Source: Halichondria panicea
Taxonomy: Eukaryota > Porifera > Demospongiae > Suberitida > Halichondriidae
Direction: 5' to 3'
Length of the DNA: 64,000 nt
Assembly (NCBI RefSeq): GCF_963675165.1
Contig: NC_087380.1
Location: 2,161,803 to 2,225,802, forward strand
This document shows positions 665 through 64,000 of this stretch, one piece after another. Under the pieces are notes generated by a model that worked only from the letters and a program-made list of their open reading frames with translations, was not told where the DNA came from and ran no database searches. Both the position numbers and the translations under genes were made by a program. Every line of letters starts with the position of its first letter. Position 1 is the stretch's first letter.

Positions 665-1043
665 ACATGACCTACCACCAGTGTCGCTAAAGGGTGTGGT
701 CAGTACTGGTGAGATACAATCATACGAGATAATGGAAATGGGTCACGAATACGAGGAAGTGTCCAAGTTCCAACGAGCCGTTGGTGGAACACCACCCTTA
801 CATACAAGTGGCTCCGAAAGCAAGTATGTTATAAAAACTGAGTCATCACCACCCACTCCACCCACTCCACTCACTCCACAACCCTCACAAGCGACTAACG
901 CTACTGGAAACGATACTGAGTTTACAGCGTGCGTTGCTTACAGCAGTGCACGACCACCCACAGTCGCCCCCCACATCCCACCAGCTTATGAACTAATACC
1001 CAATCCCCTGTATGCTACTGTTGACTATTTGCATATTGTATAA
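665..1043 (+). CDS. Gene A, last exon: cytoplasmic tail with YxxPhi motifs (partial gene)
   Basis: This is the terminal exon of a receptor whose upstream exons lie outside the window. It follows a CCTCCTCAG acceptor and enters in phase 2, exactly like the tails of genes B (10369) and D (31482), to which it is clearly related (shared LPPVSLKGVVSTGE start). The ~125-residue tail is Pro/Thr/Ser-rich in the middle. It carries tyrosines in SYEIM, EYEEV, AYELI and PLYATV contexts. YEIM fits the YxxM consensus bound by PI3K p85 SH2 domains, and YEEV resembles Src-family SH2 ligands. Only this copy keeps the last ~20 residues with AYELI and PLYATV; B and D are shifted out of that frame. No kinase or phosphatase domain is present, so signalling would need a partner. 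Function is inferred from motifs only. Confidence 0.8.
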
Positions 1044-1285
1044 TCTTGTCTAATGTTTTTGCTTGCATGCATTTCATTTCATTTTACATGGCATTGTCAT
1101 CAATTTTACGCATCCTTGCTATTTGCATGGACTCTACCCAACAACTGTGGATTATCATGCCATGTCGTTGAATGTGGTGGTTATTAGCCGCTAAGAACTC
1201 ATAGCCTCATCTACCATTTGAAAAGCCGTTCTGGTGACAAAAAGTAAATGTGTGGCCTGGTGGCAGAGGAAGATAGCCAGTGTCA

Positions 1286-2493: not shown

Positions 2494-2690
2494 ACAGAGA
2501 TGGAGGCAGGTTCAAGAGGATCCTTGTGTATAGAGACCCTGCTGGGGGTACGGATTTGCATGACTATATTCGAATTTGACTCTCTGCTCAGTAGCTACCA
2601 CCAACACGACAGAGAAACACAACCCTGAACTGGAGACAATGCTTAGCTAGATACCCTGCATTCCATGTGGACAGGGGCCGTTAGTAACTG
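2494..2690 (+). pseudogene. Degenerate SH2 C-terminal-half exon (copy 1)
   Basis: This block aligns with the intact exon at 56050-56239, which encodes the C-terminal half of an SH2 domain. It keeps a recognisable GGCAGGTTCAAGAGGATCC start and the ACACAACCCTGAACTGGAGA segment. Indels around the GGYGF codons and an extra GCTAGA before the YPAF segment destroy the frame. It ends about 400 bp before the start of gene B, the same place its relatives occupy before genes D, E and F. Confidence 0.7.
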
Positions 2691-2731
2691 AACTAGCAGC
2701 TGTACAGTATTGTATGTGTATAGTGTAGGAT

Positions 2732-2952
2732 TACCGTATAGCGTGTAATTTTCGTGGGGCAAAATATTCGTGGTTTTCGTGGTTGGAGGTCTGACCACGA
2801 ATATTTTACCCACAAATGAAGCGACCTTGCCTATACCTTCACCTGCAGTGCTGCCAGTGCAAGCTCCAACCACGAAAATATTACCCACGAAATGTCTCAA
2901 TATTGCTGAACCACGAATATTTTGTCCCCCGAAAATTACCCGCTATACGGTA
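2732..2952. mobile_element. MITE with TACCGTATAGCG termini
   Basis: The ends TACCGTATAGCGTGTAATTT and the reverse complement at 2926-2952 (GAAAATTACCCGCTATACGG) form ~28-bp inverted repeats. Internal TTCGTGG blocks repeat in both orientations. Non-coding. It sits immediately 5' of gene B and could supply promoter sequence, though nothing shows this. Confidence 0.75.
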
Positions 2953-3099: not shown

Positions 3100-3181
3100 A
3101 TGAAGAAGTTACAAGGTGACTGTGTCTCTTGGCTGGTCCTTTTGATTGGAGTTGCTCAGCTCCTACTAGTGTGTGGAGAGG
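3100..3181 (+). CDS. Gene B exon 1: signal peptide
   Basis: It begins [15 protein letters not shown] and continues through a hydrophobic core ending VCGEG, a typical N-terminal signal peptide. The start was chosen because this ATG and the next ~27 codons are conserved in genes C, D, E and F, whereas sequence upstream is not. The exon ends in phase 1 at a GTATGT donor, matching the phase of all following ectodomain exons. Confidence 0.85.
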
Positions 3182-6100
3182 GTATGTTAACTTATGACCT
3201 CTGCCAGCAATATTCACTATTGATTTCATCCACGATCTCCTTCCAGTTGTGTGCCTGTCTCTCCCTCCCCTGAACAATGGAACAGTCTCATACAGCGACT
3301 TAACACTGGGTCTGAACACTATGGCCACCTACACCTGTATCCCTGGCTACACTCTCAATGGAAATAGTACCAGGACTTGTGGGAATGTTGGAGAGTGGAG
3401 TGGGTTTTCTCCATATTGTCAGCGTAAGTGGAACTGTTTGTGTACAGTACATCCAGTCTAGAGACTAGAAGACCAATATAATTATAGTTGTACTGTATCT
3501 CAAGATTGGAAGAAATTGTGCTGATACCGTAAAAGAATAAGCTACAACATAGATCTAGAGCACTAAAGTGCAAACCCCTGGCATGATTATAAAGAAACCA
3601 GATAGTCAGTGGCGTGTAAAATGGGGGCTTTGGGGGCTTGAGCACCCCCCTGTCCTCCCAGACAACCATGAAACTAATCCTATCACTCATGCAGTAGTTA
3701 GCTATAGCTAGCTAACTGTGCAGCTCCAAAGGTAGAGTAAGTCGCCAAACTCCGTCAGACATCAAAGTGCGTCAGGTAAAAGGGCGTGTAACGCACAAAC
3801 AAAACAAGACTGAGTCAAACTAATTACACACACTAACAGATGGCCATGGGCCTATTATCCAGCGAAAACTTAAATAGGCCAAGTCGCTTCCAGTCAGAAC
3901 AGTGATAACTTGAAAAAAACCACCGAATTTTTCGATTTTTGTCAGAATGTACCGATCGCCGTTTTTGCCAAACTACACAGCTAGAGCTAACTGACACAAG
4001 CTGAGTACAATCTAGATAGAGTGCAGTACAGAGTGGAGCAATTCCCAGAATCAGGCGACCCTGCAAAGCAGAGCTACACTTGTTTCTTTGTGAGGTTGTA
4101 AAGTGCTGAGTCAGCAATATTCTAGCTATAAGCGCTAATGGTATATAGCGCTTATAACTTTAGGCGCTATTATACTAGCGCTTATAGCCAGAATATTGCT
4201 GACTCAGCACTTTACAACCTCACAAAGAAACAAGTGTAGCTCTGCTTTGCAGGGTCGCCTGATTCTGGGAATTGCTCCACTCTGTACTGCACTCTATCTA
4301 AATTGTACTCAGCTTGTGTCAGTTAGTTCTAGCTGTGTAGTTTTTCAAAAACGGCGATCGGTACGTTCTGACAAAAATCGAAAAATTCGGTGGTTTTTTT
4401 CAAGTTATCACTGCTCGGACTGGAAGCGACCTGGCCTATCTAAGTTTTCGCTGGATAATAGGCCCATGGCCATCTGTTAGTGTGTGTAATTAGTTTGACT
4501 CAGTCTTGTTTTGTTTGTGCGTTACACGCCCTTTTACCTGATGCACTTTGATGTCTGACGGAGTTCGACGACTTACTCTACGTACGTGCAGCCATAGATA
4601 CTGTACACTCCGTGGATGTGAAACGTAGGTAGTATACGGGTAGATTACGGAGTATTCGTGTTCACTCACTGCAACGGCACCCAGCTGCAGAAATGGACAC
4701 TTTTAGTGTTGTTTTTCTTGCACAGCTGCGCACTTGTGGCTTCAGTTGAGGAGAAGGCTTGCTGTACTCGTAGGTGGGAGGTAAGTCTATCATAGAGCAT
4801 GTATATTGAGCCTACATTATTAGTGGATAGCCTTTTGGAACTCATTTTTGTCTGTAACTTACTAGGTGACAAGTTTGTGGTTAGGCGATCTTTGGTTGGG
4901 TTTATGGTTGGAACATTTCGCTTTGCTTTCCTGTTAGTCTATGAAGTGAAGTACTGGGAGAATGTGTTCAGCACTTAAGGAAATGTATAAGGCTAGCAGA
5001 AAACTGAATGATAGGTCAAAAATAGGTGTTCAACAGTACCTATCTTGTGGTTAGGCAATCTTGCCAACAAAAAGCTCCATCACTTAAATGATGTGGTCAT
5101 TCAATAATATAGATGTCCTTATACCAGGAGAATCTATTTTGACCCTCAGTAAATGTTTTGTTATTTCAGGAAAGCGTGTCTTTTTGTGGTGAACATGTTT
5201 ACTCATACAAATGTACTGTATGATGATAATGCATACATGATCGTACAACAGCGGCCTGAGTAAATTATTATTACTAACATACTTTTTTAATTTAGGTAAT
5301 GCTCTATCACCAAAGGAAGCGGAAAGGAGCATAATTATTCCCTGATGCAAGACTAACAAACAAGTGTACGAGCACAAGTAGCGATAAGACGAAGAAGAAT
5401 CCTCCTTCAACTTTAAATCAGTTTTAGTGGTCCATTTAGTTGTCTATTACTAAGTCTATCTCCGTGCATGGATGCCTGCCTATATAATATTCTGTGTGCA
5501 TACATGCTGTGCTATATATACAATGTCATCACAAAAATTAAGTCAGCAGTGTACATGTAGCTAGATCAGGTTCCAATATGATTTCTGCATTTCCACTTTC
5601 ATTCATGAACATCTCTCTTGGCTCTCCCTGCGCAGAGAATCAGTTAGCACTGGAAGAACTTGGACTGGGAGCTTCAGTTATCCTATCACTCACACGTAGT
5701 TACTGTTATTATTGTATCCATGCAGTAGATTCCGTATACTATAGGGAATTTCGGATACTCGGTCCGTGTCATCCGTTGCAATGAGTGTTTCAGGACTTTT
5801 GGTAGTGGGCGGAAGTGTTTCACATCCACGGAGTGTACAGTATCTATGGTGCAGCTTTCTATCTCGATTACAAGTCATGACCACGCCCAATTGAGCATGC
5901 GCAATCAGCATTGCCATATTCCAATGTTGTTATGTAATGCATAATAGCTGATCAAGATCCTCTGCACTCTCCCAGTCACCTCTTGCTCCACTGAGAGATT
6001 TTGAGAAGCAATGACTAACACTAGAGTGACTGGACATCCCCATTGCAGTGGTTGACCAGTTTACTAGGATGTACCCCAGAAGAATAGTGATTGGAGATCC

Positions 6101-9100
6101 TACAAGATGACTGACTCATACTTGATACTCTTATTTAATATCACGCTATGCATGTAAAAGACGCGCCGCAATAAATGTGGGGGCGTAAAATCGCGCACTA
6201 TGCACGCGGCGGCCCTATTTTTTTCTGTGCTCTTGAGCACCTCCCTGCTTCAATCTCTAGAAACGCCCCTGATATAGTGATATATAAATGCAGTGCATAT
6301 GTGATGCAATCTGAGAAAAGAGTTTACATATGTTTCAAACAATATGTATAGACATAGGACTGACTGATCCTCCCACCTGCTCTGACCTAACTAATCCGAC
6401 CAATGGAATGATCAACTACAATAATATGGGGACTGTTAGTATGAGACCAGTGGGAACTGTGGCCACCTTCACCTGTGACACTGGCTACATTCTCGATGGA
6501 AACCCCACTAGGACTTGTGGGAGTGATGGAGTGTGGAGTGTGTCAGCTCCTATTTGTCTGCGTAAGTGAAATGGGATTTCGTACAATACAATTTTTTTAA
6601 ATTCTAATTACCCATCTAGAAAAACTGATTTGTTCTGACCTCACTCTCACCAATGGATACGTTACCTATGGCAGTGATAGATCTACTGACAACAGACCAG
6701 TGAACACTGTAGCTTTCTTCCACTGTAATCCTGGCTACACCCTCAATCTCACTGGAGGGAGCTTGCTCAGGGTCTGTATGAGTAGAGGGATCTGGAGTGG
6801 GTCAACTCCAACTTGTCAATGTGAGCTCAGTAAACTCTATATATTCAAAGTTTCAAACAATTGGGTATAGACATAGGACTGACTGATCCTCCACCCACCA
6901 CCTGTTCTGACCTGACTAATCCAACCAATGGAATGATTGGCTACAATATGGGGACTAGTAGTCAGAGACCACTGGATACTATGGCCATCTATACCTGTGA
7001 TACTGGCTACACTCTCAATCATGATACCACACGCAGGGTCTGTGTGAGTGGAGGGATCTGGACTGGGTCAGCTCCAACCTGTCAAAGTTAGTAGTGAAGT
7101 ATATTATTACATGTACAATCATTCAATGAGCAAGTCATTAATAACCTATACAGCCATTGAGTGTCCTCCTCTACCAACCATTACCAATGGTATGATCTCC
7201 TACTCTCCTGATGTCACCCCTGACTATGACCTGGGAACTGAGGCAACCTACACTTGTGAGGCTGGGTTCTATCTTGAGGGTAATGAGGTACGTGTGTGTA
7301 TGGATGATGATGGAATGGACGCCATTGGAGTGTAGAGTGATCAGGAGCCAAGCTGTGTTCGTAAGTTATCAGCGAAAGTGTAATTCATTTGTACTGTACG
7401 AACCGGAAGAACATACATACACATTATTATAGTGCTTGTCAAAGAGAGTTTTGTAGCTCCATAAAAAGTTATATACATGTATGTAGGACCGACTGCTGCT
7501 CCATCCACCACATGCTCTGACCTGACTAAACCAACCAATGGAATGATTGCCTACAATATCGAGACTAATAGTCTGAGACCAGTGGACACTGTGGCCACCT
7601 ACACCTGTGACACTGGCTACACTCTCAATGGAGACACTACCAGGGCTTGTGAGAGTGGTGGAATGTGGAGTGGGTCAGCTCCAGTGTGTCAGTGTAAGTG
7701 GAATGAATTTTCCGTTTTTCATGTTATGTATGGATTCTCATACAGAGATACTCTGTTCCGACCTCACTCTCATCAATGGAAACATTGTCTACAATGTTGG
7801 ATCCCCTGACAACAGACTTATCTTCTCTACAGCTACCTACAGCTGCAATCCTGGCTACACTATCACTGGAGGGAGCACTACTAGGGTCTGTGTGAGTGGA
7901 GGGATCTGGACTGGGTCAGCTCCAACCTGTCAAAGTTAGTAGCAACATTACATGTACAATCATTCAATGAGCAAGTCATTAATAACCTATACAGCTATTG
8001 AGTGTCCTCCTCTACCGACCATTACCAATGGTATGATCTCCTACTCTCCTGATGTCACCCCTGACTATGACCTGGGAACTGAGGCAACCTACACTTGTGA
8101 GGCTGGGTTCTATCTTGAGGGTAATGAGGTACGAGTGTGTATGGATGATGATGGAATGGACGCCATTGGAGGGTGGAGTGGTCGGGAGCCAAGCTGTGTC
8201 CGTAAGTTGTACTCTGTATAATTATTAGTGTTGGTTGATGTGTTTTCTTGTCATGTGGTATTATTACTCTTTATAATTATTATCACAGTCATCACTTGTC
8301 CCCGTCTCCCTGATCATACCCACACTTCAATAACCTACTCTACTGACACCACACCACCTTTCACCATTGGAACACGAGCAATGTACACCATCAACTGTCC
8401 TGAGGGCATGGAGAGAGACGGAGGAGATGATGTGAGGACTTGTACTAGTGATGGCAATAGTATCATAGGGGTGTGGAATGGATCTGCTCCAACCTGTACA
8501 GGTAATTATCTTATACATGTGTACGACAAATGATTGCTTAAGTTTGCTTTTTCCTATAGCTCAGAAGGTGTATCTATCTCATGGGAACACACACTACTAT
8601 GCCAACAACACTGCAGTCATCATTTCAACCATTATGACAACAAATGACACATCCTTGACCTGTCACACTGACTCAACCACCTGCTGTAGAGGTGTTGACA
8701 ATCCAGTGAGATCTAATGGTTTCGGAGAATGGTTTTTTCCTATTGGAGAGAGTATTGCTCGGAACAGTGTCACTGGTGATGGGTTTTATTGGACAAGATT
8801 CTATCAAGCTATCAGACTGTATCGTCAAGGTGATACCCAGACTCCACTGGGAACCTACTGCTGTAGAATACCTTACAATACTGGAGAGATGAGGACATTC
8901 TGTGCTAGTCTTGTTGGTGAATATCTGCTTAGCATGCATGGCATCATTCTAGGCATCATTCTAGGCTATAAAATTATAGTGGTAATATAGAGTCGTGTGG
9001 CTGAAAACATGGCTTATATATTATTCAGTGTAAATAATTGATAATCCTTCTCAGCAACACAATGTGACCCACTGATAAATACTCCTGATAATGGAAATGT

Positions 9101-10708
9101 GATTTACTCAAATCAATTGGACGATGGCAAGTACACCTTTGGAACCGTAGCCACATACACCTGCTCTCCCGGCTATGGTCTGAGAAGTATAGAGAATCGA
9201 ACATGCATCACTGTTGATGATGGAGGTACAGTCGGGATATTCAGTGGAAGTGAACCAACTTGTGATCGTGAGTTAGCTGAATAAATGAGGGATTAGTTGA
9301 CAAACTTTGTAATATTAACGGCAATTACTTTCTTCTACAGCCATTGAGTGTCCTCCTCTACCGACTATTACCAATGGCATGATCTCCTACTCTCCTGATG
9401 TCACCCCTGACTATGACCTGGGAACTAATGCAACCTACACTTGTGAGGCTGGGTTCTATCTTGAGGATAATGGTATACGAATGTGTGTTGATGATAATAG
9501 AATGGACGCCATTGGAGTGTGGAGTGGTCGGGAGGCAAGCTGTGTCTGTAAGTTATCAGCAGAAGCAGTTACAGCATAGGAATATTTGCCACTATTATTT
9601 TTAGCTAGTATACTGCATGTCCCTCTGTACGTCCTTGATCATAATTATACGTAAGTTGCAAAATGTCAGAACAATTGATTGACTAACTGTTTATCATTTT
9701 CCCAGCCGTCCCCCCTCCTGTACGTTCAGTGTTATTCCAGCTCAGACTCACCAACATCAACAACTGTCCTGACTGGGTGGTGAGTGCTAAGAATTTCCTA
9801 AAGCAAACAGTACTGTTTCTCTCTCTACAGGACCAGGATGGGAGGATAGAAGCTGTGATGAGCACATTTGCTGCCGAGGTGGAGAGTCACTGTGGGTGTG
9901 GTTTCTCAAGCATGGTCATGACTGCCCCTCTCTTCCGCTGCTTCCCTGGGTCGGACAGAGCTGTTACATTCCGAGCCACTCTAACCGATTCCAGGCTCCT
10001 CACTCCCATACAAGACTGGATACAAAGCAATGGATTCATTCCCATTCAGAATGTACTGATTGAAATGGACAAGTCTTGTCCAGTACAGATATTGAGCCAT
10101 ACAGACACAGAGTGCACCAATCAGCCTACAGCTGCAGGGAGCAGTGACATAGCCGCTGTGGTCGGTGGAGTGGTGGGAGTGATCATTGTGGTTGTGGTGG
10201 GCGTTGTCATCATAGTGATTGCTGTACTGTTGTTCAAAAGCAGGAGAGAGAATTCGAAGCTGACCGTCCACAGTAGAACAAAGTGAGTCAATAAATTTAA
10301 ATTTTTTGTTACTCTACCGTAAAAAGATTCTGAATTCTCCATACAATAATCTTACATTCCTCCCCCAGGCATGACCTACCACCACCAGTATCGCTAAAGG
10401 GTGTGGTCAGTACTGGTGAGACACAACCATACGAGATGATTGAAATGGGTCACGAATACGAGGAAGTGTCCAAGTTCCAACAGGCCGTCGGTGGAGAGTA
10501 TGACATCATTGGAGCACCCTCACAGACAACTGGCTCCGAGAGCAAGACTCCTATAAAGACTGAGTTGCTACTGCCCACTCCACCCACTCCACCCACTCCA
10601 CAACCCTCACAAGCGACTAAAGCTCCCGGAAATGATATTGAGTTTACAGAGTGCGTTGCTTACAGCACGACCACCCACAGTCGCCCCCCACAGTCCACAA
10701 GCTTGTGA
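3100..10708 (+). CDS. Gene B: CCP/Ig-like single-pass receptor with tyrosine-motif tail
   Basis: Sixteen exons can be placed by GT-AG sites and homology: 3100-3181, 3247-3423, 6358-6561, 6620-6820, 6877-7086, 7154-7360, 7487-7693, 7746-7934, 7995-8201, 8289-8501, 8560-8916, 9055-9267, 9341-9547, 9706-9779, 9831-10282, 10369-10708. The order is signal peptide, nine CCP domains, one Ig-like domain, two CCP domains, a membrane-proximal cysteine domain, a transmembrane helix and a cytoplasmic tail. All ectodomain exons up to 9547 are phase 1-1, so any can be skipped without a frame change. Exon 7154-7360 has an in-frame TAG, so the full-length product needs that exon skipped, or the gene is a recent pseudogene, or the base is wrong. 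Unlike C, D and F it lacks the Ig-like exon after the signal peptide. It is likely a cell-surface recognition receptor; the ligand is unknown. Confidence 0.75.
3247..3423 (+). CDS. Gene B exon 2: CCP domain
   Basis: A CCP/sushi domain of about 59 residues with the four expected cysteines, the LPPLNNGTVSY start, TYTCIPGYTLNG centre and Trp before the last Cys (GEWSG). Close relatives occupy the same early position in genes C (12340), D (19392) and F (57036). Confidence 0.88.
3732..4581. mobile_element. Large fold-back (palindromic) element in gene B intron 2
   Basis: Two arms of about 400 bp, 3732-4130 and 4180-4581, are near-perfect reverse complements (GTAGAGTAAGTCG at the left, CGACTTACTCTAC at the right) around a short centre near 4155. 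Near-identical peptides read from the two strands (3833-4117 and 4196-4480) are a by-product of the palindrome. No transposase is encoded. Confidence 0.9.
4584..5855. mobile_element. TIR element of ~1.27 kb in gene B intron 2
   Basis: CCATAGATACTGTACACTCC at 4592 is mirrored by GGAGTGTACAGTATCTATGG ending at 5850, about 38 bp of inverted repeat. The inside has only short frames that match nothing I recognise. It directly follows the fold-back element, so the two may have moved together. The remaining intron, 5856-6357, shows no feature I can name apart from a GC-rich stretch near 6160-6210. Confidence 0.7.
6358..8501 (+). CDS. Gene B exons 3-10: eight CCP domains
   Basis: Exons 6358-6561, 6620-6820, 6877-7086, 7154-7360, 7487-7693, 7746-7934, 7995-8201 and 8289-8501 each encode one CCP domain and are separated by introns of 50-130 bp. 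Three subtypes alternate. One is short, starting TCSDLTNPTNGM. One is longer, starting IECPPLPTITNGM with a VCMDDDGMDAIG insert before the Trp. The last is CPRLPDHTHTSITY with an acidic GGDDVRTC insert. 7154-7360 and 7995-8201 are near-identical duplicates, but the first has a TAG in place of the conserved Trp codon. CCP domains usually bind proteins or glycans; no ligand is suggested by sequence. Confidence 0.85.
7154..7360 (+). pseudogene. CCP exon with in-frame stop (TAG for Trp)
   Basis: The codon run GGA GTG TAG AGT at 7327-7338 replaces GGA GGG TGG AGT of the sister exon at 7995-8201. Acceptor (CTATACAG) and donor (GTAAGT) are intact. Because the exon is phase 1-1, skipping it would restore a full product. 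Otherwise gene B would give a short secreted CCP protein or be a pseudogene. Confidence 0.85.
8560..8916 (+). CDS. Gene B exon 11: cysteine-rich Ig-like domain
   Basis: About 119 residues with an Ig-V-like skeleton: B-strand Cys in [14 protein letters not shown]-strand Trp in GEWFFP, and F-strand Cys in GTYCCRIP, followed by FCASL. Two adjacent Cys pairs (CC) are unusual for Ig domains and are shared by all copies in the window (11925, 18965, 25813, 36914, 44132, 56562). Ig assignment is by pattern only. Confidence 0.7.
9055..9547 (+). CDS. Gene B exons 12-13: two CCP domains
   Basis: Exons 9055-9267 (CDPLINTPDNGNVIY start, Gly-rich DDGGTVG insert) and 9341-9547 (IECPPLPTITNGM subtype) close the ectodomain repeats. 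The first has its nearest relative at 59955 in gene F. Confidence 0.85.
9706..10282 (+). CDS. Gene B exons 14-15: membrane-proximal Cys domain and TM helix
   Basis: Exons 9706-9779 and 9831-10282 meet in phase 0. They encode a ~110-residue extracellular domain with motifs RLTNINNCPDWV, VESHCGCGFSSMV and RCFPGSDRAVTFRATL, ending LIEMDKSCPV. I do not recognise a named family; position and size recall SEA-type domains, but the cysteines argue against that. A hydrophobic run from IAAVVGGVV to IAVLLF follows, then basic KSRRE, so the N-terminus is outside. The 51-bp intron between the exons has no stop and is a multiple of three, so its retention would add 17 residues. Gene D has the same pair at 30792-31406. 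Confidence 0.8.
10369..10708 (+). CDS. Gene B exon 16: cytoplasmic tail
   Basis: Phase-2 terminal exon homologous to 665-1043. Tyrosine motifs PYEMI, EYEEV and EYDII precede a TPPTPPTP proline stretch. A net two-base loss relative to gene A, just after codons for CVAYS, changes the frame, and translation stops after HSRPPQSTSL. The A-specific AYELI and PLYATV motifs are therefore lost. Confidence 0.85.
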
Positions 10709-11782: not shown

Positions 11783-11864
11783 ATGAAAAAGCTACAAGGT
11801 GACTGTGTCTCTTGGCTGGTCCTGTTCACTGGAGTTGTTCAGCTCCTACTAGTGTGTGGAGAGG
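11783..11864 (+). CDS. Gene C exon 1: signal peptide
   Basis: [20 protein letters not shown] followed by a hydrophobic stretch to VCGEG. It is nearly identical to exon 1 of gene B and ends in phase 1 at GTATGT. Confidence 0.85.
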
Positions 11865-11924
11865 GTATGTTTTAACTGACCTGCTATAAATGAACATAGA
11901 CTGTACATAATGATATGCATACAG

Positions 11925-12287
11925 GAGTGTACTTATCTCTGGGATCAACCAACATCACCACTAACAACACTGAGATCCTCATCACTGATATTGGAGATGA
12001 TGTTGGGGATGGTCGTCCTTCTCTCATCTGTCACACTGACCTTGTGGCCTGTTGTACACCCAGTGAGACAATGGCAAAAGGTATTGGACTTTGGCGCTAT
12101 CCAAATGGAACTCGTGTTCCTGGTGAATCAGGAGCATCTCGTCCGTATGTGTCATTAAGAAATGGTCAATCCATCAAACTGGCTCGTAGAGAGAGTTTGT
12201 TGTTCTCTCCTCCCCTGAGTCCAACTGGTTCCTACTGTTGTACTATACCAACTAATGAAGGAGTGATGATGTTCTGTGCCAACCTGG
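11925..12287 (+). CDS. Gene C exon 2: cysteine-rich Ig-like domain
   Basis: It carries LSLGSTNITTNNTEILITDI at the start, LICHTDLVACC, WRYPNGT and GSYCCTIP, ending FCANL. This N-terminal position is shared with genes D (18965) and F (56562). NIT and NNT are N-glycosylation sequons. Confidence 0.72.
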
Positions 12288-12339
12288 GTGAGTGGTTCTG
12301 TAATCTTGGATTCCATCCACAATCTGATTCTGTTTCCAG

Positions 12340-13030
12340 TTGTGTGCCTGTCTCTCCCTGCCCTGAACAATGGAATAGTTTCATACAGCCACTTAACACT
12401 GGGTCTGAACACTGTGGCCATCTACACCTGTGACACTGGCTACACTCTCAATGGAGGCACCACCAGGACTTGTGGGAGTGATGGAGTGTGGAGTGGGTCA
12501 GATCTATCTTGTCTTCGTAAGTGAATATTCACTTTTGTGCTGTTTGAATGTTTTTTGTGTGTTTCATATATTCTGAGATAGCAGCCTGTTCTGACCTCAC
12601 TCTCACCAATGGAGACATTGTCTACACTGATGGATCCCCTGACAACAGACCTATCGGCTCTAGAGCTACTTACAGCTGCAATCTTGGCTACACTATCACA
12701 AGAGGGAGCACCACCAGGACCTGTGTGAGTGGAGGGAGATGGGATGGATCACCTTCAACTTGTCAAAGTGAGTTCTGTAACTCGTACACAGTTTGTGTTT
12801 CAAATAATTATGTATAGACACAAGACCGACTGTTGCTCCACCCACAACGTGCTCTGACCTGACTAATCCGACCAGGGGAATGACTGCTTACAATATGGGG
12901 ACTGCTAGTCCAAGACCAGTGGACACTGTGGCCACCTACACCTGTGCCACTGGGTACACTCTCAATGGAGTCACCACCAGAACTTGTGGGAGTGATGGAG
13001 TGTGGAGTGGGTCATCTCCTGTGTGTCAGC
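12340..13030 (+). CDS. Gene C exons 3-5: three CCP domains
   Basis: Exons 12340-12516, 12582-12767 and 12818-13030 each have four CCP cysteines, a TYxC-type centre and a Trp before the last Cys. All are open and phase 1-1. For the third, the best acceptor is TATAG at 12817; it gives a short TRPTVAPPTTC linker before the domain. Confidence 0.82.
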
Positions 13031-13087
13031 GTAAGTGGAATGGAATGTGGACATTCTTGTTTTAGTGTAGTACCCTCTTCTCTACAG

Positions 13088-13760: not shown

Positions 13761-13820
13761 GTCATAATTATTAGCTGAGTGGTAGTACATGTACCGTGAC
13801 TCCTGAGCTTATTACTACAG

Positions 13821-14431: not shown

Positions 14432-14484
14432 GTACGTTCTATTATTGCATTATCGTATCACATGATAATGTACACGCAACATAG

Positions 14485-14653
14485 CTGTGGACTGTGGGAC
14501 TCCTCTGTCTATTACCAATGGATCTCCTGGGATACCAACAACCTCAACATTGGACAGTGACCTACAGCTGTAATGATGGCTATGCACTCTTTGGGATTGC
14601 TACAAGTACTTGTTAGGCAAATGCAACCTGGAGCAGACCACCAGAATGCAGAG
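14485..14653 (+). pseudogene. Broken short CCP exon in gene C
   Basis: The homologue of 45073-45246 and 61939-62112 (VDCGTPLSITNGSPG start). A five-base deletion near 14556 shifts the frame, and a TAG follows in the TSTC-QAN region of the original frame. Splice sites remain, so the exon could only be used if skipped or left untranslated. Confidence 0.8.
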
Positions 14654-14725
14654 GTGTGTGCTTTAATACATTAATTACTGTTTGCATTCACAAGTTTAGC
14701 CCTGTTGTGCTATGATGTTTGTTAG

Positions 14726-50583: not shown

Positions 50584-50617
<34 letters not shown>

Positions 50618-52539: not shown

Positions 52540-53533
52540 GACAGTTTTAACAAAACTTTTTATGCAGCAAAAGTACAGTGTATACATAACCCTAAACCTT
52601 TCCTATAGCTCTTATATTGAACAGTATATGCACTGTACTGTATTTTCACTTATTTTCTTTCTTCTTCAACAGAAGGTGTGCCATCACTACTGGCCCAAGT
52701 TCCAAGGAGAAGCAGGCACTTATGGTGACTTTACTGTCACTCAGCAGACATTTGACGCTTATGGTGACTACGTTGTCAGGAAGCTATCTGTTGCCATGGA
52801 AGCTTCTGATGAGCCCCCTCTGTAGTGACACAGTTCCACTTCACCCACTGGACCGAGAAGGACCCCCCACAGAGCCCTGCCGCTATACTGGACGTTGTGC
52901 AGGAGGTGAATGCTGTTCAGATGGCCTCAGGCAACAAGCCCATTGTTGTCATGTGCAAGTAAGTGAATGTGTGTGTGTGTGTATGCTTTGATTGCATTAC
53001 AATAAACAAGTATCTCAATGTCTCACTACCCCCCCCCACACACACACGCAGCAACTTATGCATTGATGTCTCACTACTACCTTACTATACCTCCCCCTCA
53101 CACACATGCAGCAATGGGATTGGTCGCACTGGAATGTTCATCACCCTGCATACTCAACTGGAGCGACTCAAGATTGAGGGTGTGATCGATGTGTTTCAGT
53201 TCATCAAGTTTGCTCGCAAACAGAGGGAGGGACTCGTTAGCAGTCCTGTAAGTCATTAAGTCTATTACAATACAAGTCTATTGGAAGCTACATTTTACTG
53301 TATTCTACTGTATTCTATTCTCCATTCTATGCTGTATAGATCCAATGTTTAACTACTCCGTTTATTTTAAAAGTACCTGTGTGCTTTGTACATTCATTTA
53401 GATATTATCTTTCAATATGAAGTAATCACCGTGCATCCCCCACTGTGCAGGAGATGTATGCTTTCTGTCACGAGGCACTGGCTGACTATGTGGACAGTTT
53501 TGAAACTTATGCCAACTTCAAAGAACTGGTTTA
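52540..53533 (+). pseudogene. Duplicated PTP D2 exons with frameshift
   Basis: Copies of gene E exons at 52673-52958, 53112-53247 and 53451-53533, including ~130 bp of upstream intron. One base is missing near 52812 (GATGAGCCCCC against GATGATATCCCC), giving a stop at 52823-52825. The rest remains similar to the functional copy. They belong to a tandem duplication of about 2.6 kb (roughly 49.9-52.5 kb to 52.5-54.5 kb) that also copied part of the SH2-type gene. Confidence 0.88.
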
Positions 53534-53746
53534 ATTAACATTAACTCACAGAAACATTTGATTTTATATTATACTGCTGCTTTTATAGTTTTTAGATTGT
53601 AGTACAGACTCAGACTATACCAATAGCAAAACTGTGAATGTGTTTACCACTGACTTTTATGATACTGAATTATTGCACTCGCTGGGGTGAGAGTGTGTTA
53701 TTTAACGTGTGTTATTACCAATTCTCTCCCCACCCACCATATTGCA

Positions 53747-53884
53747 GGTTTCTCCGCAGTGTGGTTGGCGTAACGATGAGATCAATGCTCGTATTGAGCG
53801 TTTTGAGGCAGACTCTAGTGGAGTGGAGGAGGACGAGGGACTCTACGCCACCTACGCCATGCTACACACCTATCGCAATGAGTA
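53747..53884 (+). pseudogene. Acidic helical exon of SH2-type gene, copy 2 (frameshifted)
   Basis: The homologue of 51411-51545; one base is missing in CTCCGCAGTGTGG, so EINARIERFEADSSGVEEDE is only readable in a shifted frame. Confidence 0.65.
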
Positions 53885-54029
53885 AGTGGGGGAGGAGGGG
53901 CTGGGTACAGTGTATAATAGTATTTAAGACTTTGGATTGTTAGTAAGAGCTTGCATGAGCAGATATTGCATGTTGTCTTTGCATGATGTACATTGTCTTC
54001 TGCAAAAACATTTTATGTGTGCCTTTACT

Positions 54030-56419: not shown

Positions 56420-56504
56420 ATGAAGAAGTTACAAAGTGTCTCTTGGCTGGTCCTTTTAACTGGAGCTGCTCAGCTCCTACTAGTGTGTGGACAAAGTTCA
56501 CCTG
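56420..56504 (+). CDS. Gene F exon 1: signal peptide
   Basis: [18 protein letters not shown] with a two-residue deletion relative to the other genes, then VCGQSSPG before a phase-1 GTATGT donor. An in-frame ATG nine codons upstream exists but is not conserved. Confidence 0.82.
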
Positions 56505-59500
56505 GTATGTTTAAATTTCATGACCTCTGCCAGCCAGTTTATATCAATTGCATACATGCAGGAGTGTACCTATCTCTGGGATCAACCAACATCATCACTA
56601 ACAATACTGAGATCCTCATCACTACTATTGGAGAGGGTGCTCCGGGTGATCTTCCCCTTCTCATCTGTCACACTGATCTAGTGGCCTGTTGTAGAAAATC
56701 TGATACAATAGCAAAGACAAATCCAACGGGAGATTGGCACTATCCAAATGGAATTCCTATTCTTGTTGGAAATAAAGCACCGCCAGATGCATTGTTTTAT
56801 ATACAGAGAAATAAACAAGTGGTTAGACTGCATCGTAATGAGAGTATCAACCCTCAGACTGGTTCCTACTGTTGTACTATACCTACTATTGCAAAGGAAA
56901 TGATCCTCTGTGCCAACCTTGGTGAGTGAACCATGCAGTACCGAGTTCATAAAAGTAATAATAAAGTAATAATGTGGTCTACGCAATGGGTAGAATTCAA
57001 TAAAGTATAATTTCCCCTTTCATATTTCAATGCAGTCGTGTGTCTGTCCCTCCCTCCCCTGACCAATGGAATGATATCCTACTCTGACCCAACACTGGGT
57101 GTGGGGAGTGTGGCCACCTACAGCTGTGAGGCCGGATATATGATAAATGATAACAGTACTAGCACGACATGTGAAGAGGGTGGAGAGTGGAGTCAATCCA
57201 GTCAACCAAACTGCGTTGGTGAGTGCCCTTGTCTTGTTTTATATTTGCTATGCTGCATGCTGTTAACTCTAATTTATGGCCCGGGCCCTTCGATGATTTG
57301 TATATATAATTATTGCACAGTACCTATAGATTAATATATTTCTGCAGCCATTCTAACTGCAATGGTCTGTACTGAATTGATGGATCTAGTCAACGGAACT
57401 ATCACGTATAACATGGATCCCATGGGCCTAAGACCAGTAGTGGGCACTGTGGCCACCTACACCTGTAACCCTGGCTACACTCTCACTGGAGACAACACTA
57501 CGATTTGTGAGAGTGGGGGGAGCTGGAGCAGTTCAGCTCAAACTTGTGAAGGTTGGTTAACTATAGCTATGCTGTAGTACATGTATACATGCAGTCGCAT
57601 AACTGTTCTCAATAAATCAGGCTATTTTCTCCTCAGTGATTGTGTGTCCTCTTCTACCGGCCATTACCAATGGCACCATCTACTACTATCCTGATGTCAG
57701 TACTCTTTACGTTGACCTGGGAACTTATGCAGCCTATATTTGTGAGGCTGGATTCAATATCATTAATCAGGTACGAATGTGTATGGAAGATGATGGATTG
57801 GACGCCATTGGAATGTGGAGTGGCCAGGAACCAAGCTGTGTCTGTAAGTTATCAGCGAAAGTGTATCTTGTATATGTACTGTACGAATCCGAATATGTAT
57901 AGAGTATGGTCATGCATGCATGTGCACATTACACAGTCATCACTTGTCCCTCTCTTCTCCCTGATAATTCTCACACCTCAATAATCTACCTTCATGACAA
58001 TACCACACCACCTTTCCCCTATGGAACACGAGCGAATTACACCATCGACTGCCCTGAGGGCATGGAGAGGGACGGAGAAGACGATGTGAGGACTTGTATT
58101 CGTAATGGCAGTAGTGCAGTGGGTATTTGGAATGGAACTGCTCCAACCTGTACAGGTACGTATATAGGTCAACCAACACCACAGTTATATAGCCAAAAAG
58201 ATCGATCACGTGTTATAATGTTGGTGCATTCGAATGGGCTCAAGGTTAATGTGGTACGAGGTGAACGCTACACAGAATAAATTAACATTATCTTGGTTAT
58301 AGTTATAGGTGTGTTCTATAAATCAATGTTTCGGTCACTTTTCTTCAAGTTTCAACCTCATTATTATGCTTCGGTGTTTGGATGCGGTGAGGTATACAGT
58401 ATATAGTGTGTTGTTTGTGTGTGTGTCTGTGTGTATGTACTGCTATATATAGCTGCTCAATGATAAATAAAGTGCAAGTAAGAGCTTTCATAGGCCTCTT
58501 TAAAATCTTTTTTTACTTGGATTTGAATTTGTAGATTTGCAAAACAATGGAGTTATGGCTACTTTGAAGGCCACTGCAGTATTTTCAGACTCGTGTGTAG
58601 CAAAATCTGTTGATATAACTTACGTTGTAGCTATTCTACTTATAGGAGTTAGCACACTAATTAGCTGCAATAGTGGGGAAAGAGCTGCAGACCTGCACTG
58701 TTTCAAGAATGCAGAAGCCCCATTAATAAATGTACTGGCAACCTTCTTAGCAACAATCAGGGTCAATCCTTTCCCACTCTCTTGCACAATTCTTGCATGT
58801 AAGTAGCTAAAGTATTTAGCTGTGCTGCTATCATTCCACTGAGGCATCATCACCCACAGCGCTGTAATTTTATACAGCCACAGATACAATGGACTGTACT
58901 GATCTGATGGATCCTGTCAATGGAGGTATCACTTACGATATTGGCACCACTGGTAACAGACCAGTGAACACTGTGGCCACGTACGTCTGTGATACTGGCT
59001 ACATGCTCGAGGAAGACGCCAACACCACTAGAACTTGTGAGAGTGCGGGGAGATGGAATGGGTCAGAACCAGAACCATCCTGTATAGGTTAGAAACACAT
59101 ACAACACCAGCTGCGTGAAATTAGTATGCTAAATATTGCTCTGTCCTGCAGCAAAACAGTGTAAAGAATTGCCTCTGCTGAAAAATGGAACAATCATGTA
59201 CAATGCTAGTACTCCTTATTACCTGGATACCACAGCAAAGTACAAGTGTAACAATGGGTATTTCCTGGAGGGACAATTTCAGAGGAACTGCACTGCTGGA
59301 GAGGTGGACAATATCAGTGGGGTGTGGACAGGATACGTACCAACATGTGTCCGTAAGTTGATTTTTGTGGCTTAAATTGCCGTATTATGTACATGTACAT
59401 TCAGCGAGGTATACGGTAGTGTGTTTTTGTGTGTGTGTGTGACGTGTGTGTCTGTCTCTCTGTCTGTCTGTCTGTGTGTGTAGACTGCTAAAGCTGCTCA

Positions 59501-62500
59501 AGGATCAATCAAGTGCAAGTAATAGGCTTCTAGTGATGTTTTCTTGGATTTTAATTTGTGGATTTGCAAAATAATGCTTTGTTCTTGAGTTATGCCTAGT
59601 TTTGCTTACTTAGAGTGCTATTGCAGCCTTTTCAGAAGAGTGCGTAGCAAAACTTGTTCACCGAGTGTTGCTACTCTACTTAGTAGTTAGCTCTGCATTA
59701 GAATACTAGCTATTAGTAGCTGCAAGAGTGAGAAGAGAGCTGCAAGGCTCTGTACTATAGATGCAGCTAGACTTGAACTTTTGGCATCAATCGTTTTTAA
59801 TAACAATTATGATCGATCATTACCCACTCTTTGTGATTCTGGCTCGGATTCTGCCTGCATTCAGCAAAATGTTCATCATGATAAAATAATAATGTGTGTA
59901 GCTTTGGCATTTCCACCGAGGCATTAGCACCCGCGGTGCTTTCATTGTTCTCAGGAATACGATGTGACCCGCTGATGACTGCTTCTGATAATGGAAATGT
60001 TACTTACTCAAATCAATTGGACGATGACAAGTACATCTTTGGCACAGTGGCCACCTACACCTGCTCTCATGGTTATGGTCTGAGCAGTACTGAGAGTCGA
60101 ACATGTATCACTGATAATGGTGGTGGTGGGGCAATCGGGAGATTCAGTGGGAATGAACCAAACTGCGATCGTGAGTTGATTTTACTGATTAATCTAACAA
60201 TTAATTCCTGTATTGTCCATAGGTATCACGTGTTCTGCTCTCCCAAGCATTACAAATGGGTCCATCAGTTACCCTAGTGGTACTACTGCACCATATGACT
60301 ATGAAACAACAGGTAATTATCAGTGCAACGATGGACATGTGTTAACAAGTGGAGACAGTGAAAGGACTTGTACTGGTGATGGTAGCACTTCTAGTGGTCA
60401 GTGGAGTGGTAATGCCCCCAGATGTCCACGTATGTTTTAAGTGTTTTGTTCGTGTCACATGATAATGTACACACACAGCTGTGGACTGTGGGACTCCTCT
60501 GTCTATTAACAATGGATCTCCTGGGATACCAACAACCACAACATTCACAGGAACAGTGACCTACAGCTGTGTTACTGGATATTGGATATCTCCAAGAGTC
60601 ACCACAGCAACGGCTACCTGTAAGGCTGACAGGACCTGGGTACCTCTACCAACTTGTCAATGTACGTGAATTTCTACCCGACTTGTGCATTGACATATCG
60701 TTTTCACTCACTCAGTTGTGGATTGTGGCTCTCTTCCCACCATTATGAATGCATCTCCTGGAACACCCACCAGAACAACCTACCTAGGGACAGTTACCTA
60801 CACCTGTGTCAGTGGATATGAAGTCTCCAATGGAGTTACCACAGCAATGGCAATCTGTCAGGACAACGGAAACTGGAGACCTCTACCAACTTGTACAAGT
60901 ATGGTTCAGGGATTTTTTAACTTCAGAATTGTACGTCATACTGAATTACGTACATACAGTTGTGAACTGTGGTGATCCTCCCACTATTCTCAATGGATCT
61001 CCTGGTACACCATCCAGCTCAACATTTGGAGGGACAGTGTCTTACACATGTAATAGCAATAGATATCACGTGTCAGATCCAGCCACTGTGACTTGTGAGG
61101 CTAGTGGGAGTTGGAGCACAAGACCAATTTGCTCAGGTCTGTGAAACATATTTAATAATTAATTTTTGTGGTGACATGATTGTTAATAGCCATCTGCAAT
61201 GACCATCAAATTGAAAATGGTGACATCAACTATGATTCTAATGCCACACCGAGAGTAGAGGGAGCCATTGCCTTTTACTTGTGTGTGTCTGGTTACCAGC
61301 TGTCTGGTGTGAGATTTAGGATCTGTGCGGACAATGGAAATAGAATGGGTGGTGTATGGACTGGATCAATACCAAGCTGTACAGGTATAAAAACAAAGAA
61401 ATCTCCATTCCCTATTGTATGTACATTTCTAATGTTGCAGCAATCTGCCTTGATCTCACCCTTGCCCATGGAGTGATCAGCTACAGTCCATCTACTACTC
61501 TCAGACTGGAGGATACTGTGGCTACACACAGCTGTGGTGAGGGGCACGGACTGTTTCCTAGTGTGAGAACAAGAACATGTCAGCCCGACAGGACGTGGAG
61601 TGGAGAGGAAATCACTTGCAAACGTAAAGATTGGGTATATCGTAGATGCTATACACTAATGTATGTATTGTCCGCAGGTATCACGTGTTCTCCTCTCCCT
61701 AATGTTACGAATGGGACCATTAATTACCCTAGTGGTACTACTGCACCATATAACTATGAAATAACAGCTACGTATCAATGCAACCACGGACATATGTTAA
61801 CAAGTGGAGGAGACAGAGTGAGGACCTGTACTGGTGATGGTAGTACTCCTAGCGGTCAGTGGAGTGGTACTGCTCTTCAATGTCCACGTATGTTATAATA
61901 TTGTATTGGTCGTATCACATGATAATGTACACACACAGCTATGGACTGTGAGACTCCTCTGTCTATTACCAATGGATCTCCTGGGATACCAACAGCCACA
62001 ACATTCACAGGGACAGTGACCTACAGCTGTGATGATGGCTATGCACTCTTTGGGATTGCTACAAGTACTTGCCAGGCAAATGCAACCTGGAGCAGACAAC
62101 CGAAATGCAGAGGTGTGTACTTACATTAACTCACAAGTTTAGTCCTGCAGAGGTACGTAGTTTACATTATTGGGCATAATAAAATTATACAACACAGGTA
62201 TCACTCTTACTGGTATCCAATCTGGTGTACCCATCTTAATTGGAGGTTCTGTTACCATCAACTGCACAACTATATTTTCTGCTGACTCAATAATATTGCT
62301 CCAAGATAACCACCCTCTTTATGGAACTCGTCAGTCCTCCACCATCTTGACGCATAACATCCCTCTTGTGAACGATAGCATCCATAGAAACACGTTCAAA
62401 TGTGTGGCCAATTTCTCAGAAACTCCAGACACTGCCTTTGACAATGTCACTACTATTATTGGCAGTAAGTTACAGTTTTAGCACTCATGATGATTAAACT

Positions 62501-64000
62501 TCACTCTATAGTACCTGATCAACCTATCAACGCTAGTATCAGCCCATTAATATATTCACTTCCATTAATCGGAGAGCCATACACTGTGACTTGCAATGTG
62601 TCTAAGTTGCCTGGACTAACTCGTACACCAACTGCTCAGTGGATACAAGTTGCCACGGGGACTGGAAGACTAATCTCGCCCACTCCTAGTCAAGCTACTC
62701 TCAAATTTTCTCTACTGAGAACCTCAGATGCTGGTACATATCGTTGTCAGGGTAACCTCAATACCACTATTTACCCTGACCTCCTTTCTGACAACAGTGA
62801 TTTCGACTTAAATGTTCAAAGTAAGTAATCCCCATAGCCCTAATCATCCGTCAATGTTATCATTTTACAGTACCAAAACCAGCAGTGACAATCACAAGGT
62901 CACCCTCCACCTTCTACTTGTTTGCTAACCTCAGTGTGGTAACATTTACATGTCAAGTGTCCATACATACAAACATTGATACTCCTGTCAGTTTGAGCTT
63001 GACTTGGACTCGTGAAATTTATAGTAATGAAGATGATACAACCACTGAAGTGATCATGGTGAATAATACAACCAAAAATATTGAGAGGAGATGGACCTTT
63101 GATGATTTTAGTTCAAAAGACAAGAAAGTAACTTGCAATGGAACAATAAACTCAGCTAGCAGTTTTATTCAAGGCAATAGCATCACAATTGAAGACATGT
63201 TATCTGTTGTTGGTGAGTTGCCGTCTTCATAACCTATAATTATGATAAAGCTAATACACTATTCAGGTGTGTTTCTGATGTTCAACGGCAGTGTACTGGA
63301 CAACACGACCTCTGTACCAGCGAGGGATGTAAATGTCATACAGTGTCACTCTGACAAGACAGATACATTTGATGAAGACCAACATGGATGGAGTTTCCCT
63401 AATGGCACCAAGATTACTAACATCAGCACACTGGCTGTTGCAACACGGGAGGGAGGACACCTGGCACTCACTCGAGTGGGAAACAGTTCCCTGCCAGCTG
63501 GAAAGTATTGTTGCAAGGCTCAGGACGCCAGGGAAACCAGCCACACCCTCTGTGTGCATGTAAACCCAGGTGAGCTAGAGGGTTGAGGTAGATGTTATGT
63601 CATCCGAGCCAGTAGCCATCTAATTGCTCTGAGATTCTTGGGAATGAATGTGAGGCACATGTGTAACCAGCTCCTAGATGGAACAACTAGCGATCTATAC
63701 CTCTAGTTACATAGCCTGGCCTGGCCTACTCTCTATTTTTATTACCCACAGAACCAAGTTCCAGTAGCACTGCCATGGTGGGAGAGATAGCTGCTGCAAT
63801 TGTCATTCTGGTTGTTGCTCTACTGATTATCGGAGCAGTTATTCTCATTGTTGTCAGGTATATAATTAAGTCATTAATTAAACTTTTATCTCTGTAAAGA
63901 ATGCACAACTTAAATAACTATATTAATGGATGTACTATACTTCTTTTAGAGCTCATAGATCTGGAAAGCACACTTTCTCTGGCCTTGCGTTTGGTGGAGG
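56420..64000 (+). CDS. Gene F: second CCP/Ig-like receptor, phosphatase-type (3' partial)
   Basis: Exons: 56420-56504, 56562-56921, 57036-57218, 57348-57551, 57637-57843, 57937-58155, 58878-59087, 59152-59352, 59955-60170, 60223-60429, 60479-60661, 60716-60898, 60960-61136, 61190-61384, 61441-61623, 61678-61887, 61939-62112, 62198-62464, 62512-62820, 62871-63212, 63267-63569, 63752-63857, 63950->64000. The order is signal peptide, Ig-like, fifteen CCP, four Ig-like, transmembrane helix and the start of the juxtamembrane region. The last ten exons follow gene E closely (VDCETPLSITNG CCP, then the four Ig-like exons and the transmembrane exon), so a tandem PTP region is expected downstream. No lesion was found. 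The CCP set differs from gene E: no array, but three short VDCG-type CCP exons in a row. Confidence 0.85.
56562..56921 (+). CDS. Gene F exon 2: cysteine-rich Ig-like domain
   Basis: LSLGSTNIITNNTEILITTI, LICHTDLVACCRKSD, WHYPNGIP, GSYCCTIP and LCANL landmarks. The region after PNG (ILVGNKAPPDALFYIQRNKQ) differs strongly from genes C and D. Confidence 0.75.
57036..58155 (+). CDS. Gene F exons 3-6: four CCP domains
   Basis: 57036-57218, 57348-57551, 57637-57843 and 57937-58155, phase 1-1 and open. The fourth is the CPSLLPDNSHTSIIY subtype with the acidic GEDDVRTC insert, which elsewhere precedes an Ig-like exon; here that Ig-like exon is absent and a repeat element follows. Confidence 0.85.
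58408..58877. mobile_element. TG-headed repeat element in a gene F intron (copy 1)
   Basis: It starts with a TG-rich tract, then CTGCTCAATGATAAATAAAG, TTTGTAGATTTGCAAAACAA and an end with CACTGAGGCATCATCACCCA directly before the next exon acceptor. The same order occurs at 59415-59954 and, reversed, at 20570-21870. A short open frame inside (58537-58806) is not conserved among copies. Confidence 0.65.
58878..59352 (+). CDS. Gene F exons 7-8: two CCP domains
   Basis: 58878-59087 (MDCTDLMDPVNGGITY) and 59152-59352 (KQCKELPLLKNGTIMY), both open, phase 1-1. They are enclosed by two copies of the TG-headed element. Confidence 0.85.
59415..59954. mobile_element. TG-headed repeat element in a gene F intron (copy 2)
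   Basis: TG-rich tract, GCTGCTCAAGGATCAATCAA, TTTGTGGATTTGCAAAATAA and CACCGAGGCATTAGCACCCG, ending at the acceptor of exon 9. Paired with 58408-58877. Confidence 0.68.
59955..62112 (+). CDS. Gene F exons 9-17: nine CCP domains
   Basis: 59955-60170, 60223-60429, 60479-60661, 60716-60898, 60960-61136, 61190-61384, 61441-61623, 61678-61887 and 61939-62112. Three consecutive short exons (VDCGTPLSINNG, VDCGSLPTIMNA, VNCGDPPTILNG) look like an internal duplication. 60223 and 61678 are near-duplicates (TCSALPSITNGSISYPSG and TCSPLPNVTNGTINYPSG). All are phase 1-1 and without stops. Confidence 0.88.
62198..63212 (+). CDS. Gene F: three Ig-like domains
   Basis: 62198-62464, 62512-62820 and 62871-63212 are orthologous in order to 45298, 45623 and 45975 of gene E. 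Landmarks: VTINCTTIFSADSIILLQDN, IQVATGTGRL with DAGTYRC, and VTFTCQVSI with LTWTREI. Confidence 0.82.
63267..63569 (+). CDS. Gene F: fourth Ig-like domain
   Basis: [48 protein letters not shown]. It is the counterpart of 46372-46677 and keeps the WxxPNGT signature that gene E has altered to PNST. Confidence 0.78.
63752..63857 (+). CDS. Gene F transmembrane exon
   Basis: EPSSSSTAMVGE then ~23 hydrophobic residues ([20 protein letters not shown]) and IVVR, phase 2 at the end, as in gene E. Confidence 0.9.
63950..64000 (+). CDS. Gene F juxtamembrane exon (cut by window end)
   Basis: [17 protein letters not shown] matches the start of 46981-47198 of gene E ([17 protein letters not shown]). The exon runs off the window. 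Confidence 0.85.

Follow-up and report, generated by a model that had tools for sequence, protein, structure and literature searches.

A receptor gene array of the sponge Halichondria panicea in which closely similar ectodomains are joined to tyrosine-motif tails or to tandem tyrosine phosphatases

Results

The demosponge Halichondria panicea carries on contig NC_087380.1 (C4 in the following) of its 131-Mb genome an array of receptor genes in which closely similar outer regions are joined to different endings. The window analysed here, a stretch of 64,000 nucleotides (C4:2161803-2225802), is a slice of this array; of its at least 29 genes, five start within the window. Profile searches on both strands detected 69 CCP exons in the window, some of them partial, and nine exons for a domain that we call IgX, all on the plus strand. 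No Pfam model scored above its cut-off for IgX; its predicted structure matches Ig domains. Signal-peptide exons are present at 3100, 11783, 18830 and 35969, each ending in LLLVCGE, and a fifth, shorter one at 56420 (MKKLQSVSWLVLL). A preliminary description of the window had proposed five such exons and a common pool of ectodomain exons, and this is borne out both by the profiles and by a comparison of the window with itself, in which upstream, signal-peptide, ectodomain and tail stretches were found in common. The genes of the window are called A to F; genes elsewhere are named by their position on C4.

On a 264-kb map that includes the window, the profiles identified 17 signal peptides, 227 CCP exons, 35 IgX exons, nine sets of three further Ig domains (Ig1-3) and seven tails, all on the plus strand. 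These make up 18 genes arranged head to tail if the signal peptide of the first gene, which was located afterwards, is counted. Nine genes end in phosphatase domains (2088066, E at 2197771, F at 2218222, 2233382, 2249879, 2264154, 2279070, 2296072 and 2322888), seven in a tyrosine-motif tail (2102637, 2115403, 2130649, 2139696, A at 2157661, B at 2164902 and D at 2180632) and two in Ephrin_rec_like and FN3 domains (2147101 and C at 2173585). Two genes depart from these types: 2322888 is a phosphatase gene without Ig1-3, and 2139696 is a hybrid in which Ig1-3 and a membrane-proximal IgX, as in the phosphatase genes, are followed by a tail. Exons of phase 1-1 prevail in our models (209 of 222 CCP, 29 of 32 IgX and all 27 Ig1-3 exons). 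Ten internal stops occur in nine gene models; since every one of them is split over an exon junction, we read them as wrong splice choices rather than lesions. In addition, 2088066, 2115403, B, E and 2233382 are each represented by two models, and 2147101 and A by a single fused one. Both main architectures are also found in NCBI proteins assigned to this contig, in which IgX, the transmembrane segments and the Ig of P0002 were read by eye or from alignments: P0002 starts with MKKLQGDC and continues through CCP, EGF, Ig and transmembrane regions to two phosphatase domains, and in P0122 and P0123, IgX is followed by CCP, Ig and FN3 and then by a transmembrane segment and a tail. P0002 probably derives from gene 2296072, as the two signal peptides are identical.

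That the endings are interchangeable, as the preliminary description had claimed for the intracellular modules, is supported more strongly once genes beyond the window are included: by the hybrid gene and by two pairs of one tail and one phosphatase gene with closely matching ectodomain DNA. The tail gene 2102637 and the phosphatase gene F are 87.5-88.8% identical, introns included, in four collinear blocks over 5.7 kb. The match runs from the upstream region through the signal peptide and IgX into the CCP exons and ends at 2109376 and 2223916. With shared length taken as the sum of all pieces of at least 300 bp at 85% identity or more, this is the longest common ectodomain (5271 bp) among the 136 pairs of 17 mapped genes. 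Identity is higher, at 94.6-95.2%, between the tail gene 2073776 and the phosphatase gene 2088066, which form the second pair and match as far as 2079353 and 2092432. At about 88% and 95%, both pairs thus combine near-identical ectodomains with different cytoplasmic parts within one gene cluster.

The points at which the matches end are defined by a conserved CCP block, which we call the joint block and for which the copy of gene C (14400..14655) served as query. In the first pair the match stops in both genes precisely at the 3' end of this block, and in the second pair the match in 2088066 stops no more than 3 bp from it. The block is present at near full length in 15 of the 18 genes (including the query itself) and partially in 2115403; the search with the gene C copy found none in genes A and B. 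It lies directly before Ig1 in all nine genes that have Ig1, in 2279070 as a partial copy of 148 bp, directly before Ephrin_rec_like in both genes with this domain, and before the transmembrane region in 2322888. In three tail genes, the joint block is followed by two or three more CCPs and then by the juxtamembrane domain.

The extent of the array follows from several repeated elements. The 243-bp block upstream of gene D has 38 copies in the genome (38 of 38 candidates scored), all of them on C4 between 1,878,857 and 2,601,407, 37 on the plus and one on the minus strand, with one copy being a 39-bp fragment. Signal-peptide exons of the MKKLQ type number 29 so far, 17 on the map and 12 in separately fetched head pieces, and the array thus comprises at least 29 genes. 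The latter were found in 12 of 35 fetched heads, for which only about 200 bp upstream were fetched, and all 12 are located at 1.88-2.60 Mb. Each of the 49 genome matches to the tail query is on C4. IgX gave at least 150 genome matches, nearly all on C4 (150 of 275 candidates scored), and the phosphatase profile PF00102 at least 176, mostly on C4 among the matches listed (150 of 361 candidates scored). On the map, the upstream block precedes 16 of the 18 genes; the only two without it are both Ephrin_rec_like/FN3 genes, C and 2147101. Two further IgX-headed arrays, one of which ends in tails and the other in phosphatases, are present at C4:0.12-0.24 Mb and 0.33-0.48 Mb; the short stretches fetched from them contained no MKKLQ signal peptide. 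Other dense CCP clusters were seen at C9:5.62-5.68 Mb, C2:6.45-6.48 Mb, C1:11.15 Mb and C15:3.86 Mb.

Within the window, where all features are on the plus strand, gene A is represented by its 3' tail (666..959), with an open frame to 1040 that ends in VDYLHIV. The 5' part, whose signal peptide (C4:2157661) and first IgX are both frameshifted, precedes the window. A 248-bp stretch between genes A and B (1983-2230) is almost pure TG repeat. Gene B has an upstream block at 2497..2732, one of the 38 array-specific copies, a signal-peptide exon at 3100..3181, CCP exons and one IgX (8568-8906) identified by profiles at 3252..9543, and a juxtamembrane domain, a transmembrane segment recognized by eye and a tail (10370-10705) at 9708..10705. 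One of its CCP exons contains an in-frame TAG near 7162-7335. A short mobile element with inverted ends of about 44 bp (2732-2953) separates the upstream block of gene B from its signal peptide; copies of 90-95% identity occur on many contigs. Gene C (11783..15324) consists of signal peptide, IgX, CCPs, Ephrin_rec_like (14731-14871) and FN3 (15004-15324); its last CCP exon, the joint exon (about 14485-14655), carries a 5-bp deletion and a TAG, and the paralogue 2147101 is intact there. Because the exons are symmetric, skipping the lesioned exon of B or C would keep the frame. Gene D has its upstream block at 18343..18585 and extends over 18830..31806 with signal peptide, IgX, the CCP array, a second IgX (25818-26165), the juxtamembrane and transmembrane region and a tail (31483-31803). 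At 23025-25404 of gene D, a near-identical CCP exon unit of 277 bp is repeated in tandem in 8.7 copies with 94% matches, a sign of recent expansion.

The two remaining genes of the window are of the phosphatase type. In gene E, signal peptide, CCP and IgX exons (35969..45246) are followed by Ig1, Ig2, Ig3 and the membrane-proximal IgX (45298..46677), a transmembrane exon supported by P0002 (46789..46888), and the juxtamembrane region with the phosphatase domains D1 and D2 (46976..50916), the latter with WTE in place of WPD. A partial duplicate of D2 with a broken frame is found next to gene E at 52541..53911. Gene F (56420..64000) encodes a signal peptide, IgX, 12 CCPs, Ig1-3, IgX, a transmembrane segment (63752-63857) and a juxtamembrane region. 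Its phosphatase end had been predicted from the window; indeed, D1 and D2 are located at C4:2227171-2229946, just beyond the window. The models of D and F contain no stop, and gene E is free of stops once the transmembrane exon is placed.

Tandem phosphatase domains, also proposed previously for gene E, are present there and in eight neighbours, and P0002 and P0005 each contain two Y_phosphatase stretches. D1 has kept the catalytic loop HC(x5)R and the WPD motif in nine of nine copies. All nine full copies of D2 have WTE instead of WPD, and C(x5)R is kept in the D2 of P0002 (VMCNNGIGR); D2 is thus probably a weak phosphatase. The closest solved relatives of a 116-residue piece of D1 are PTPRS and LAR. 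Signal peptide and transmembrane segment occur together on one phosphatase protein, P0002, and genes E and F have transmembrane exons, all recognized by eye and not with a predictor. Judged by their tandem domains, D1 loops, signal peptide and transmembrane segment, the array phosphatase genes are predicted to encode receptor-type tyrosine phosphatases.

The tyrosine tails that had been described for A, B and D were found at 666-959, 10370-10705 and 31483-31803, respectively. HEYEEVSKF occurs in all seven mapped tails and GEY[ED]II in six; in gene D the first tyrosine has become a cysteine. A loose pattern for the immunoreceptor tyrosine-based activation motif (ITAM), Yxx[ILV]x(6-12)Yxx[ILV], fits seven of seven tails, six of them as YEEV-x10-YE/DII, and the tails of P0122 and P0123 (YEEV-x10-YEMV) fit it as well. 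The pattern for the corresponding inhibition motif (ITIM), [SIVL]xYxx[ILV], occurs in one tail, that of the lesioned gene A (VDYLHI), and is absent from the other six and from P0122 and P0123. Both are general patterns for these motifs, and valine at position +3 is not canonical for an ITAM. The YxxI/L/V core is the tail motif given in the available part of PMC12065747. The end of the gene A tail frame (960-1040) is unlike the other six tails (PAYELIPNPLYATVDYLHIV), and a stretch similar to it, AYEIPNPLYHYATVDYV, is found at 16959-17070, downstream of gene C.

For gene C, an Eph-like module with FN3 had been suggested. The FN3 part scores above its cut-off (fn3, E 1.1e-8); Ephrin_rec_like stays just below (E 2.4e-4, 21.2 bits at a cut-off of 23.1). 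No transmembrane or cytoplasmic domain was identified in gene C, and a tyrosine kinase domain was found neither in two open reading frames downstream of it nor within the window among the matches listed from a genome search in which 129 of 1749 candidates were scored. Among the listed matches, multi-exon tyrosine kinase matches cluster at C4:2.52-2.76 Mb, just past the array, and further kinase clusters are on C10, C15, C2 and C1. The FN3 part of the gene C module (14731-15324) recurs at 14 other places on C4, C5, C14 and C1 with 80-91% identity, an unusually recent spread.

In a tree of the 13 mapped N-terminal IgX domains, the ending changes six times (minimum 2, shuffled mean 5.8; as low in 153 of 200 shuffles). 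With so many changes, close to the shuffled value, the head is uninformative about the ending in the mapped region. The ratio of nonsynonymous to synonymous substitutions (dN/dS, sum per module) is lowest inside the cell and higher outside: it is 0.04 for the D1 catalytic exon, 0.06 for the pooled D1 and D2 loop exons and 0.16 for D2, 0.17 and 0.39 for the two juxtamembrane exons, 0.24 for the transmembrane exon, 0.34 for the signal peptide, 0.45 for the tail, 0.46 for the membrane-proximal IgX, 0.48 for the juxtamembrane and transmembrane region of the tail type, 0.50-0.58 for Ig1-3, 0.59 for the middle IgX, 0.67 for CCP and 0.70 for the N-terminal IgX. A scan of the latter (23 genes, 210 pairs used) revealed 11-codon windows near residues 21-29 and 45-51 in which the corresponding ratio of proportions, pN/pS, reaches 1.4-1.9, values given with no significance test, and several strand windows at 0.2-0.35. 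Of 28 pairs of phosphatase genes, 27 show more synonymous divergence in Ig1-3 than in the phosphatase part (median 0.352 versus 0.170), and the N-terminal IgX likewise exceeds the phosphatase part in 12 of 15 pairs. The lower values in the phosphatase part fit recombination or conversion that holds the 3' ends alike.

Discussion

The hybrid gene, the two matched pairs and the lack of a relation between head and ending among 13 genes demonstrate a paired architecture. The preliminary description had likened the locus to clusters of paired activating and inhibitory receptors; the paired architecture stands, and activating and inhibitory functions of its members are putative, with a loose ITAM-like pair in six of seven tails and the ITIM pattern in one of seven. 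With a little more than even confidence, we regard paired-type recognition receptors that have a built-in phosphatase as the opposing arm as the best explanation. The array is nearly one-directional, and most of its genes have a common upstream block and signal peptide. The joint block connects their fast-changing outer regions of IgX and CCPs with different endings, mainly a transmembrane tyrosine tail or Ig1-3, IgX and transmembrane segment with tandem tyrosine phosphatases. Beyond the gene structures, common heads, hybrid gene, joint block and selection contrast, which are observed directly, we infer ligand binding, phosphorylation, an opposition of the two arms and an immune role. The outer region may bind a variable surface ligand, either microbial or from a conspecific. 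Tail-type receptors would be phosphorylated on their YxxI/V motifs and recruit SH2 proteins, and phosphatase-type receptors with the same outer region would strip the phosphate upon co-engagement, so that one specificity would carry an on arm together with an off or tuning arm. Unequal recombination, helped by the symmetric exons, the head-to-tail copies and the joint block, would be able to move an existing specificity between endings.

Several observations speak against this explanation or limit it. The partners of the pairs are not identical: 2102637 has about 1.3 kb extra with a second IgX, both of which F lacks, and before the break 2073776 has 20 CCP exons and 2088066 has 15, so that repeat number differs. 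Three of the six window genes (A, B and C) are lesioned. Across 38 heads of C4, the ending changes nine times; two changes are the minimum, shuffling gives a mean of 14.8, and none of 200 shuffles reached a value as low. This tree leaves out nine of the 35 fetched heads, which have no ending label, and the partial head of gene A because of its length; heads outside the map took their label from whichever match to tail, FN3 or phosphatase came next downstream. The endings thus cluster, by recent duplication, and switches are episodic rather than free. The selection values do not form a smooth gradient either, since the remaining phosphatase exons range from 0.12 to 0.60 (PTP1a 0.23, PTP1b 0.24, PTP1c 0.36, PTP2a 0.12, PTP2b 0.39, PTP2d 0.60), and no whole module has a dN/dS above 1. 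Array members that end in a kinase were considered and rejected, as the 10 kb upstream of the one neighbouring kinase gene examined contain neither CCP nor IgX.

The array might consist of ordinary receptor phosphatases for adhesion or matrix contact, acting in cell contact or development and expanded by chance with no role towards non-self. The relation of D1 to PTPRS and LAR is in line with this idea, as are the phosphatase relatives of Ephydatia muelleri (Em0011g764a, 766a, 767a and 769a), which have Ig, in most cases FN3 and no listed CCP and bear neighbouring gene numbers, and a Dysidea avara protein (P0079) with CCP, Ig, FN3 and phosphatase domains. We nevertheless consider it unlikely in view of the size and turnover of the array, the matched heads with different endings, and the low dN/dS inside the cell against higher values outside. 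Neutral churn, in which tandem copies recombine and decay and shared heads are recent accidents devoid of functional pairing, would account for the lesions in A, B and C, the broken D2 duplicate by gene E and the clustering of near-copies in the head tree; it is about equally improbable, given that the D1 catalytic exon is under strong purifying selection, the catalytic loop is kept in all nine copies and the models of the paired genes 2102637 and F contain no internal stop. Uncollapsed haplotypes that inflate the array would fit the identity of about 95% over kilobases in the second pair. However, every one of the 13 mapped heads is separated by 6-19% from its closest other N-terminal IgX, and the two genes with the longest stretch in common have different endings; such an assembly artefact is hence very improbable.

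An immune role of the array, which the preliminary description had put forward as innate immunity or allorecognition, is plausible, and allorecognition would be a special case of it. That the array decides fusion or rejection between individuals seems to us somewhat less likely than the adhesion and churn explanations: Ig, sushi and tyrosine-motif tails are mixed as in the fester co-receptors (FcoR) of Botryllus in the available part of PMC12065747, but our data come from one haplotype, and aggregation factors are a sponge candidate family according to a title in the reference list of that article. It is tempting to speculate that paired-type recognition takes the form of a sponge locus for self or friend versus foe, in which hypervariable paired heads set an ITAM-like tail against a quenching phosphatase and recombine at a fixed CCP joint; this suggestion is tentative and improbable as a whole, if a shade less so than adhesion or churn. 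Were it true, paired on/off recognition would have emerged in sponges with a receptor phosphatase standing in for ITIM signalling.

Vertebrate paired receptors such as KIR, Ly49 and SIRP are encoded in tandem clusters and have near-identical ectodomains with opposing cytoplasmic parts, and their inhibitory arm recruits a phosphatase through an ITIM. In contrast, the phosphatase of the sponge array is built into the receptor itself. Receptor phosphatases of the LAR, PTPRS and PTPRD type, with CD45 more distant, are likewise single-pass proteins with Ig domains, a juxtamembrane region, intact D1 loops and an altered WPD in D2, whereas the array has IgX and CCP rather than Ig and FN3 outside, is organized in tandem, and uses its ectodomains on receptors other than phosphatases as well. 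The Botryllus FcoR genes resemble the array in that they form a cluster and encode type I receptors, which combine V-type Ig, sushi and two C2 Ig domains with a transmembrane segment and YxxI/L/V tails; they differ in having far fewer CCPs and, in the available part of the article, no described members that end in a phosphatase (PMC12065747). Compared by architecture alone, the tail genes of the array have Ig, sushi and a YxxI/V tail, in an order and number other than in FcoR. CCP-bearing phosphatases were also found with the phosphatase query in Mercenaria and Branchiostoma. The combination of CCP and phosphatase is therefore not new by itself; for common heads with two endings we found no precedent. 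The protein searches made here revealed no tail-ended partners with the same heads in Dysidea and Ephydatia (phosphatase search: 712 proteins, 7976 candidates scored, best 120 listed), and the tail search, for which proteins of about 0.55 to 1.75 times the query length were candidates (897 in all), yielded two hits, both from Halichondria. The literature searched, open-licence PMC articles only, contains no description of the array.

Genes with sushi and Ig domains are among those that respond to lipopolysaccharide in H. panicea, and other receptor families of this sponge show individual-specific expression (PMC8242945, available part). In Aplysina aerophoba, sushi, Ig and one tyrosine phosphatase gene change after microbial cues (PMC6208332, available part); none of the responsive genes of either study is shown to be from the array. 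Allorecognition mechanisms of invertebrates have been called a "complete mystery" in a Botryllus review, with no conserved candidate proteins across sponges, cnidarians and ascidians (PMC12065747, available part). With its mapped genes, its two pairs of matched heads and its switch point, the locus is accessible in a sponge that has already been challenged with lipopolysaccharide, and it bears on the way in which invertebrates that lack adaptive immunity combine recognition with restraint.

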